Translations under genes and position numbers: made by a program | Notes under the pieces: model-generated | What the model was told of the DNA's origin: nothing | Databases searched by the model: none | Seen by the model: the letters and a program-made list of their open reading frames with translations, nothing else | Part shown: positions 18,477 through 21,060 of the stretch, piece by piece | Position numbering within the stretch: position 1 is the first letter of the stretch | Layout of the letters: each line of letters starts with the position of its first letter | Source: a virus | DNA length: 22,904 bases | IMG/VR virus record: IMGVR_UViG_3300025128_000365 | Location: 1-22,904 of that record | Strand: one strand, 5' to 3'

Positions 18477-18813
18477 GGTGGCGCTGTTCGACCCAGATGA
18501 AAGCCACCGGAAATCTGCGAGCCAGATCTTTTCCGCCTGGTGGAGAGATCCGAATCGGAAACCGACACTCAAGACTCATCGTGACACGACGATCATCAAC
18601 CGGATAACTGAAGCCTTGGTCGCCGGGTTTGACGAGGCGACGATCCGGCGGGCGTTGGACGAGTGTTGGAAGTTCAGTTCCACCCAAGCATGGGAAGTGG
18701 CGTTGAACATCGCATACCGGAAGGTCCGCGACGAACAACCGCAGCTCTCGGCAACCCAGCAGGCGATCCTTCGCGTCAGGGCCAACGACGGTGGCTTGGC
18801 GACGCCGACATGA
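18469..18813 (+). CDS. unknown early protein, 114 aa (possible replication helper)
   Basis: ATG 18469 lies within the end of the previous gene (8-nt overlap). Helical: ASQIFSAWWRDPNRKPTL, INRITEALVAGFDEATIRRALDECW, then AWEVALNIAYRKVRDEQ and a basic tail. A four-helix layout with FDEATIRRAL recalls phage replication or helicase-associated helical domains, but no definite family is seen. Soluble. Confidence 0.6.
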   Translation: MTEVALFDPDESHRKSASQIFSAWWRDPNRKPTLKTHRDTTIINRITEALVAGFDEATIRRALDECWKFSSTQAWEVALNIAYRKVRDEQPQLSATQQAILRVRANDGGLATPT

Positions 18814-19015
18814 ATGGAAACTCTCTGCTGCTTGTCGCGGAGAGCGGGCCGAAGTGTTCTACGAGGAACGCTTCTACGACCTCGCCCGCTCCATCTGCAA
18901 TGGATGCCCGGTGAGAAGGACTTGTTATGAGGTCGGTCGCCGACAGGACTTCGGTGTGTGGGGCGGCGTCACACGAGGGTGGCTTAAGGAAGACGATGAC
19001 GATTTCTCTAACTGA
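18791..19015 (+). CDS. whiB: WhiB-family iron-sulfur transcription factor (copy 1)
   Basis: 74 aa from GTG 18791, overlapping the previous gene by 23 nt, with AGGG 9 nt upstream. Four Cys bind a 4Fe-4S cluster: C15 (SAACRG), C36-x2-C39 (ICNGCP) and C45 (RTCYEV). The GVWGG turn (55-59) is the WhiB signature, and an acidic tail replaces the usual basic AT-hook-like end. WhiB proteins bind the host sigma factor and occur only in actinobacteria and their phages, which fixes the host group. It may steer host transcription or stop superinfection; the target is unknown. Confidence 0.92.
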   Translation: MAWRRRHEWKLSAACRGERAEVFYEERFYDLARSICNGCPVRRTCYEVGRRQDFGVWGGVTRGWLKEDDDDFSN

Positions 19016-19304
19016 CGTTCCTGACCAGGTGTTCGTGGTGCCGTGTGACCGGCACGACACCCGCTATCTCGCTATCCGGTCGGATGATTCAGACGGCGAA
19101 GAAGCCGTCCTATTCGTGGCTGAGGCCACAGCCGGGTTTGAGGCCACGGTTTCCTCGATGGTGGAAACCGGTGTTGTGCTCAAGCGTTCATCGGCCGCGC
19201 TTCTAGCGCATGCGCTTCTTGATGTGGCGTTGAGGCTTCAACCACAGGAAGAAGAAGACGACACTTGGTTAGACCCTGAGTCGAACGGGCACGGCGGCTT
19301 ATGA
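18996..19304 (+). CDS. unknown early protein between the two WhiB genes, 102 aa
   Basis: ATG 18996 is preferred (AAGGAAG upstream) over an ORF beginning at 18927 inside the WhiB gene. Mixed beta/alpha: VFVVPCDRHDTRYLAIRSDD, EEAVLFVAEATAGFEATV, then a helical SSAALLAHALLDVALRLQ and an acidic tail. Overlaps both neighbours (20 nt, and ATGA). Its location between two WhiB genes hints at a shared regulatory role; function unknown. Confidence 0.6.
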   Translation: MTISLTDVPDQVFVVPCDRHDTRYLAIRSDDSDGEEAVLFVAEATAGFEATVSSMVETGVVLKRSSAALLAHALLDVALRLQPQEEEDDTWLDPESNGHGGL

Positions 19305-19597
19305 GCGCTACGGACCCAACCCCTGAATGGATGCGGGAAGCCTTGTGCCGGGGCATGTCTCTTGATCTTTTCTACACAGACGAAGACGGTAGGCGGGTTT
19401 CCACGAAACAAGCCAAACAGACCTGCATGGCTTGTCCGGTCAACAGGGACTGCCTGCACGACGCGATCAAACGCCGCGAACCACATGGCATATGGGGAGG
19501 GATGACCCCCAGCCAGCGTGAGCGGTACACGGCTACACGACTTGTTCTCCACACGACTGAGTCATTTCGTCGATATGGAAGTCGGAAGGTGAGTTGA
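19301..19597 (+). CDS. whiB: WhiB-family iron-sulfur transcription factor (copy 2)
   Basis: 98 aa, ATGA overlap. Cluster Cys at C16 (EALCRG), C42-x2-C45 (TCMACP) and C51 (DCLHD), with GIWGG (63-67). The C-terminal part is basic (SQRERYTATR and RRYGSRKVS), unlike the acidic tail of copy 1, so this copy may touch DNA while the first may act by binding sigma. The two differ strongly in sequence, so they are not a recent duplication. Confidence 0.93.
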   Translation: MSATDPTPEWMREALCRGMSLDLFYTDEDGRRVSTKQAKQTCMACPVNRDCLHDAIKRREPHGIWGGMTPSQRERYTATRLVLHTTESFRRYGSRKVS

Positions 19598-19872: not shown

Positions 19873-20009
19873 GTCTCACGCCGAGTGGCAATGACGAGGC
19901 TGTGACGTTGCAGGAGTTGCGTCGCATCCGCGGCAAAGACCTGAGACCGGTCCCGCTTCCAGGTGAGGAAACGGAACCCGTCGAGGACGAGTCGGAGGAA
20001 TCGTCGTGA
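19869..20009 (+). CDS. 46-aa acidic-tailed miniprotein
   Basis: ATGA overlap at the front, GTGA at the back. N-terminal half has a helical basic segment (VTLQELRRIRGKDLRPVPLP), and the last 14 residues are almost all Glu/Asp/Ser. Acidic tails of this kind may mimic DNA or bind basic proteins, but this is only a suggestion. Confidence 0.5.
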   Translation: MSLTPSGNDEAVTLQELRRIRGKDLRPVPLPGEETEPVEDESEESS

Positions 20010-20227
20010 GCCTCGTCCACGGTTACCTCTGCACGAACATGGACAAGGTCGTCTCCGATGAACGGGTCGCTAACCATCGTGTGGTCGAAGTGAGTTCACC
20101 ATACGGCCAAATCGCATTCGACATAACCGTATGGATGAAGGCCGAGTGGGCGAACGGCAATCTGACGATTTGTGACGCCGGTTTGGATCGCATGCCGGGT
20201 GTCGGGCAACCACTAGTGACGCCGTAG
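20006..20227 (+). CDS. unknown early protein, 73 aa
   Basis: GTG start in a GTGA overlap. Beta-rich small protein: VHGYLCTNMDKVVSDERVAN, VVEVSSPYGQIAFDITVWMK and NGNLTICDAGLDRMPG. No motif or family recognised. The next gene starts right after its stop. Confidence 0.55.
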   Translation: MSLVHGYLCTNMDKVVSDERVANHRVVEVSSPYGQIAFDITVWMKAEWANGNLTICDAGLDRMPGVGQPLVTP

Positions 20228-20383
20228 GTGGATGTTGACGTGTGCGGGCATACGAAACGACCACACAAGTGGATCGCCATCGGCAAAATCACCCAGCATT
20301 CCAATGGCCGGATCATCGACTGGTGGCAGTGCCGGGGCTGCGGTCTAGTTCAGGATCGGGACATTCCGGTGGGTCACGCATGA
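20228..20383 (+). CDS. 51-aa zinc-finger-like miniprotein
   Basis: GTG 20228 directly follows the previous TAG; its TGA overlaps the next ATG (ATGA). C6 and H8 (CGH), H13, and C35-x2-C38 (CRGC) could bind zinc, with Trp-Trp-Gln before the second pair. Too short to be listed by ordinary gene finding, but the tight junctions support it. Function unknown. Confidence 0.55.
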   Translation: MDVDVCGHTKRPHKWIAIGKITQHSNGRIIDWWQCRGCGLVQDRDIPVGHA

Positions 20384-20628
20384 GCCGCATGTCTTTCAAC
20401 CGTTGGCTCCGGCTTGGAATCCAACAGGGCCACTGTGGCCCACCAGTGTGCGAGACACACGACGGCACGCCGATGAGCGAAGAGGAAGCAGAAGAACTAT
20501 GGGACGGCGGTGAACCCTGCATCCACGTCATCCGGCCATACAGCAGCCCAGACCACAAGAAAGAAGTCGAAGACGCGCACCCTCCTTCGACATGGCGAGA
20601 CACCTGGACGGGTCGATGCATCCGGTAG
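20380..20628 (+). CDS. small actinophage-type protein, 82 aa
   Basis: ATG 20380 in an ATGA overlap; a longer in-frame ORF extends back into the preceding gene and is rejected. Contains CGPPVCETHDGTPMSEEEAE and GGEPCIHVIRPY, a motif I recall in many small actinophage proteins (PPVCxTHDGxPxxEEE...DPCIHxIR). The three Cys and His residues may bind metal. No proven function. Confidence 0.6.
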   Translation: MSRMSFNRWLRLGIQQGHCGPPVCETHDGTPMSEEEAEELWDGGEPCIHVIRPYSSPDHKKEVEDAHPPSTWRDTWTGRCIR

Positions 20629-20635
20629 CAAGTGG

Positions 20636-20756
20636 ATGAAGGTCGGGAGTTTATGCACCGGTTCCGGCGGGTTGGACCTCGCTCAAGACCCTCGGCAACG
20701 CCGTCGTACCCGCTCAAGCACATCTAGCCCTGGAGTTACTCCACCATGACACCTGA
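20636..20756 (+). pseudogene. collapsed relic of a C5 cytosine DNA methyltransferase
   Basis: ATG 20636 opens MKVGSLCTGSGGLDLA, matching the start and motif I of C5 cytosine methyltransferases (SLCTGSGGLDLA). Some 16 codons later, in another frame from 20685, the sequence reads KTLGNAVVPAQAHLALELL, matching the last motif (GNAVxPxxA), and ends TGA 20754-20756. Everything between, including the catalytic PCQ region and target recognition domain, is missing. The old stop overlaps the start of the next gene, the tight spacing usual in this operon. GCTCAAG occurs at 20681 and 20712. Cannot encode an enzyme. It may reflect a real deletion or an assembly error. Confidence 0.8.
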
Positions 20757-21060
20757 CGAAGCCGACAAAGTCCTCTTCACAATGGCAGCCATGTGGCCCG
20801 CCAAGGTAGACGACGCAACCATCGCCATCTGGCGCAACCGGCTCCAACGCCACGACTTCACCCACGTCATCAACACAATCGACAAACTCGCCGACCAAGC
20901 AAGATGGTGGCCGAGCTGGGCCGACGTGATCGAAGGCGTCACCGCTCAGAAACGAGCCGAACATGCGGCTCGATCTGCTCTACCGCCCGTACCGGTTGAA
21001 CGGATGCCGTTGCCGGAAGTCAGGGCTGCGATAGCGGAGGCTCGTGCCGCGCTGCGGTAA
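20746..21060 (+). CDS. helicase loader-like protein (G39P-type), 104 aa
   Basis: ATG 20746 overlaps the end of the methyltransferase relic. The pattern LFTMAAMWPAKVDDATIAIW, then LQRHDFTHVINTIDKLADQA and WWPSWADVIEGV, follows the layout of small phage loaders of the replicative helicase (phage SPP1 G39P and relatives: helical N-terminal domain with late ...PPTIADI...). The C-terminal third (75-104) is a helical tail suited to helicase contact. It would bring the host helicase to phage DNA. No helicase, primase or polymerase is present in the window. It is the last gene before the terminator. Confidence 0.65.
   Translation: MTPDEADKVLFTMAAMWPAKVDDATIAIWRNRLQRHDFTHVINTIDKLADQARWWPSWADVIEGVTAQKRAEHAARSALPPVPVERMPLPEVRAAIAEARAALR

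Follow-up and report, generated by a model that had tools for sequence, protein, structure and literature searches.

A probable deletion remnant of an orphan C5 cytosine methyltransferase gene in a phage genome, and an apparent overlapping second gene in its intact homologues

Orphan C5 cytosine methyltransferases (PF00145; PHROGs 363, 116 and 1008) are carried by phages such as the Mycobacterium phages A1SD1 and VRedHorse and the Streptomyces phage Darolandstone. Protection against restriction by phage methyltransferases is documented for lactococcal 936-type phages (PMC4190342). Two C5 methyltransferases, M.AquI and M.EcoHK31I, need two polypeptides (PMC3404938). Here we describe a locus at which only the two ends of such a gene are left, in a window of 22,904 bp (the whole stretch of DNA that was analysed, from IMG/VR record IMGVR_UViG_3300025128_000365). 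A first-pass annotation, made from the letters alone, had read 20636-20756 as the ends of a collapsed C5 methyltransferase (MTase), and both pieces indeed score above 40 bits against profiles of intact homologues. We are highly confident that the segment is a deletion pseudogene remnant of a phage-borne (orphan) C5 cytosine MTase gene. The features of the locus are as follows.

20380-20628, plus strand: small upstream gene of unknown function ('THDGTP' protein), with homologues in L001, L019, L088, L089 and mycobacteriophage Aminay.
20636-20683, plus strand: 5' remnant of the MTase gene, from the ATG through motif I, MKVGSLCTGSGGLDLA (from the translation and the position-specific matrix).
20636-20749, plus strand: leftover 37-codon frame with an ATGA overlap with the next gene, a possible relic of translational coupling.
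20681-20684, plus strand: deletion junction with a putative microhomology of 2-3 nt (CT or GCT), placed by the homologue residues flanking it; intact parent not found.
20682-20756, plus strand: 3' remnant of the MTase gene, read in the +1 frame and comprising motif X with the natural stop, LKTLGNAVVPAQAHLALELLHHDT then stop (from the position-specific matrix, phrog_1008 and phrog_363 matches, and the codon list).
20732-20735, plus strand: GGAG within the 3' remnant, a putative Shine-Dalgarno-like site serving the gene at 20746 (judged from the sequence).
20746-21060, plus strand: downstream helicase-loader-like gene (phrog_2289, E 2.4e-5; 96% identical homologue in L001).

The 5' piece consists of 16 codons in the frame of 20636 and, as the first-pass annotation had it, contains motif I (FxGxG, SAM binding; here GSLCTGSGGLDLA) near the N-terminus. 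Past 20683 this frame continues with residues foreign to the family until a stop at 20747-20749, giving 37 aa in total. The 3' piece lies in the +1 frame relative to the 5' piece (20754 − 20636 = 118, remainder 1) and its end overlaps the ATG of the downstream gene. A terminal motif in a different frame, ending in that overlap, had also been described correctly, but the tail is 24 residues long rather than the roughly 22 given. Motif X (GN.VVP) is present at the C-terminal end as LGNAVVPAQA, but in the other frame and lacking a start codon: the codon list contains none in this frame after the in-frame stop at 20637-20639, and the 3' piece is therefore not translatable on its own. The motif IV Pro-Cys catalytic loop, the motif VI ENV and motif VIII are absent, and PF00145 has no match in any frame of the 22,904-bp record. 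Neither a single frame nor two complementary frames carrying motifs I-X, as a working phage MTase needs, is present at the locus.

We assessed the identity of the two pieces with position-specific matrices, one with 15 columns for the N-terminal end and one with 19 for the C-terminal end, and scanned the window in all six frames. The matrices were derived from 80 loci with an intact C5 MTase; IMG/VR supplied nearly all of these and phage records a few. It should be noted that the homologues were fetched with patterns that included motif X, and hence the C-terminal profile is biased towards GNGVVPQQ, working against the window's GNAVVPAQA. The 5' piece nevertheless scores 44.1 bits and the 3' piece 41.8 bits, while the next-best scores elsewhere in the window are 2.1 (N) and -0.0 (C) bits, and the maxima over 60 simulated order-3 Markov windows are 12.0 (N) and 10.7 (C) bits. 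The 5' remnant is identical to the best homologue, L042, at 14/15 positions and the 3' remnant to the best homologue at 15/21. A Pfam search with the pieces gives no match and the MTase families of PHROGs match them only at E 0.003-0.014; standard libraries show little because the pieces are only 16-24 residues long. The Pfam blank is the one observation that could be taken to favour a chance resemblance of 40 codons to MTase ends, an explanation to which we attach negligible probability. Each piece independently stands more than 30 bits above the best of the 60 simulated windows, and the two lie at gene boundaries in the right order and on the right strand, with an ATG at the start and an end that overlaps the next gene. 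Chance resemblance is excluded, for either piece alone. Alignment with complete C5 MTases, proposed as a check when the locus was first annotated, thus finds both ends matching rather than neither.

We then located the switch between the pieces. Of the 80 homologues, 71 follow GGLDxA with V (GTN), and most have Q in front of LK (CAA in 45, CAG in 14); the corresponding codons of the window are CAA (Q) and TCG (S). The homology must therefore switch inside GCTC (20681-20684), so that the pieces abut, and the 17 codons that the first-pass annotation placed between them do not exist. Homology reaches the junction from both sides and ends there sharply, the reading frame is lost, and the homologues have additional sequence between the two ends; all of this agrees with the earlier description of a deletion inside a packed operon. 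The missing middle, judged from the homologues, has a median of 248.5 residues (range 205-484, n=80), so the catalytic part is gone as claimed, but about 250 residues rather than some 300 have been lost. The junction is consistent with microhomology of 2-3 nt. We infer the breakpoints and the size of the deletion from the homologues, since an intact MTase copy at exactly this locus was not found in the relatives searched.

A different account of the same junction is that the assembler collapsed an intact MTase or joined two strains into a chimera. The remnant is known from one metagenomic contig only, and its junction 22-mer is absent from all other IMG/VR contigs, both of which would fit such an artefact. 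A de Bruijn collapse, however, needs a shared k-mer, and one of 20 or more bases has no place here, since MTase homology comes within a few bases of the junction from either side; collapse at a repeat is therefore unlikely, and no direct repeat spans the junction. Furthermore, the nearest relative also lacks an MTase, so the absence of a working one here is not unusual. We consider an assembly artefact very unlikely.

In the preferred explanation, a genuine remnant, a single internal deletion would have taken out roughly 600-1450 nt, which in most homologues corresponds to about 250 codons. Illegitimate recombination at the 2-3 nt microhomology probably fused codon 16, where motif I ends, to the region of motif X. 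The loss runs from the catalytic Pro-Cys loop through the target recognition domain, and with these gone the enzyme cannot be made. Because the ends have changed so little, the loss was probably fairly recent; the deletion had been called frozen, which fits only in part, as the pieces are still near consensus. The 3' remnant was probably kept because it carries the GGAG, 10 nt before the ATG of the downstream gene, and overlaps the start of that gene. The leftover frame, ending in its ATGA overlap, probably also keeps the ends in place.

A stronger version of this last point is that the 37-codon frame has been kept as a leader, linking the helicase-loader-like gene translationally to the upstream gene via the ATGA. 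The leftover frame does stop exactly in the ATGA at 20746-20749, and the nearest relative (L001) keeps the coupling by other means, its upstream gene itself extending into the start of this downstream gene. We nonetheless regard a retained leader as improbable: an ATGA overlap is expected by chance in one of three cases, the peptide is not conserved in any other contig, and the ribosome-binding site before 20636 is weak.

The ancestral enzyme presumably methylated the phage DNA, and by analogy with other phage MTases it may have served in restriction evasion. That the gene was lost on moving to a host without the corresponding restriction system is a guess. The window itself encodes a tyrosine integrase, a repressor-like HTH protein, a single-strand annealing protein (SSAP), an SSB, a resolvase, a head protein and an endolysin, and two WhiB-like regulator genes lie close together at 18791-19015 and 19301-19597. 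The WhiB-like genes, together with the integrase and repressor-like gene set, point to a temperate phage with an actinobacterial host, and such a phage is probably the source of the sequence. Just upstream of the collapsed MTase is a mosaic stretch (20006-20383), which holds two small genes (20006-20227 and 20228-20383) in the window; its counterpart in the nearest relative (L001, 4578-4763) is one unrelated gene.

A synteny search with the SSAP gene and both neighbours of the remnant retrieved only the contig of this nearest relative and distant homologues of the upstream gene. The nearest relative, IMGVR_UViG_3300020473_000328 (L001/L003/L087), is about 90% identical in DNA over 4.5 kb. In it the upstream gene is joined directly to the start of the downstream gene, the MTase is absent, and PF00145 has no match in the record; either an original empty state or a second, cleaner loss would fit. 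No DNA-level relative was detected among 50,697 phage records. Exact and degenerate patterns for the C-terminal piece and the junction had no match in IMG/VR, and a tblastn search with the 23-residue C-terminal piece alone returned nothing, the query being too short. The sole pattern match in a bacterial genome (L095, Paracoccus) was rejected as a chance match within an unrelated open frame.

The first-pass annotation had supposed that relatives carry a working MTase in this position. The nearest relative does not, but in the distant contig L019 the upstream small gene has a homologue, 43% identical, whose end overlaps the start of a C5 MTase. This is the only contig in which an upstream-gene homologue adjoins an MTase, the upstream gene being found without one in L088, L089 and phage Aminay, so that comparison of syntenic loci yields this adjacency rather than an intact copy of the exact locus. 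On this one example, L019 supports the presence of an MTase in this position in some lineage, and support for relatives with a working MTase here is thus indirect only.

The L019 MTase is itself read in two frames. In L019 (2989-3841) and in L085 and L086 (3001-3904), motifs I-VIII lie in one frame, and the target-recognition domain with motifs IX-X lies in an overlapping +1 frame, which carries LPTPT, EWMMGLP and GNGVVPQQ. The sequences of L085 and L086, taken from two contigs, are the same and were counted as one lineage, which is 72% identical in DNA to L019 over the motif I-VIII part. We rejected sequencing errors as a source of the two-frame arrangement, given that the +1 relation is common to two lineages and the +1 product is conserved. 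Thus the MTases of both lineages are apparently two-polypeptide enzymes.

Since some relatives have motifs IX-X in the +1 frame, the frame change in the window need not stem from the deletion. Rather than contradicting the remnant explanation, this would refine it: the window may be a collapsed two-frame locus in which a single deletion, a multiple of three bases long, took both the MTase and a phrog_1008-type protein (in +1, spanning motifs VI-VIII and the target-recognition region), and the change of frame seen at the junction would then be ancestral. The two pieces in the window are +1 related, as in L019 (3839 − 3001 = 838) and L085/L086, and L019 is also the contig with the upstream-gene adjacency. 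Against this, a +1 relation arises by chance in one third of cases, motif X lies in the motif I frame in 80 of the 83 retrieved loci, and a tail of 24 residues cannot separate the one-frame from the two-frame type. We therefore hold a two-frame ancestor, and its collapse in a single deletion, only tentatively, at somewhat less than even chances.

The single-chain homologues also appear to have a second gene in the +1 frame, which begins near codon 83 and runs through the target-recognition region to its end. Examples are listed below.

L014, 1548-2075: conserved +1 overlapping gene.
L008, 3254-3712: conserved +1 overlapping gene.
L017, 3254-3706: conserved +1 overlapping gene.
About 40 further IMG/VR MTase loci: conserved +1 overlapping gene.

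It is also found in Mycobacterium and Gordonia phage MTase genes (L092, L093, L094). The longest +1 frame in single-chain homologues averages 174 codons, compared with 79 in synonymous codon shuffles, and in 73 of 83 genes it is longer than in all 20 shuffles; the +2 frame, in contrast, is short and in most of the lower-GC genes reaches about 30-50 codons. An ATG of its own, in a conserved context and preceded by purine-rich sequence, opens the +1 frame in 42 of 64 lower-GC genes. Synonymous codon identity is about 1.2 times expectation at the gene ends and 2.2-2.3 times in the overlap, in a set of related genes with the codon expectation pooled over the set. All 24 aligned +1 proteins match phrog_1008. 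The structure model of the +1 protein is poor (mean pLDDT 52.5), and among solved structures the +1 family has no credible match. Our conclusion from these comparisons is that an overlapping phrog_1008-type gene in the intact homologues is strongly supported, and that in such phage C5 MTase genes one stretch of DNA appears to code for two proteins. A literature search with partial coverage did not turn up a published account of an overlapping gene of this kind in phage MTases.

In Rhodococcus phage ReT1v-2 (LC859274.1; L091), the annotation of 1501-2405 contains only the +1 product, as a 'hypothetical protein', and a 51-codon C-terminal piece, as a 'DNA methyltransferase'; a full-length MTase frame over the same DNA is unannotated.

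We regard the remnant in the window as a genuine but ordinary, well-defined gene remnant, and the overlapping gene of its homologues as the more interesting lead. The window is a clean case of a temperate phage, probably one of actinobacteria, that has lost an MTase; its near-consensus remnants mark the former position of the gene, and it is mainly of use for annotation. An overlapping second gene would affect the annotation, cloning and testing of phage C5 MTases, as the main frame expressed alone might miss a needed subunit.

Compared with the phage orphan C5 MTases, the window shares the motif I start (GSLCTGxGGLDLA), the end (LGNGVVPQQA in those enzymes) and the overlaps with neighbouring genes, but it lacks the motifs between I and X and has its ends in different frames. 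L019 and L085 have their closest known precedents in M.AquI and M.EcoHK31I and are split like M.AquI, in that motifs I-VIII would lie on one chain and the remainder on an overlapping second chain; they differ from both in that this second chain, over motifs VI-VIII, is encoded in the +1 frame relative to the first. Unlike M.AquI and M.EcoHK31I, the window keeps no working part of either chain.
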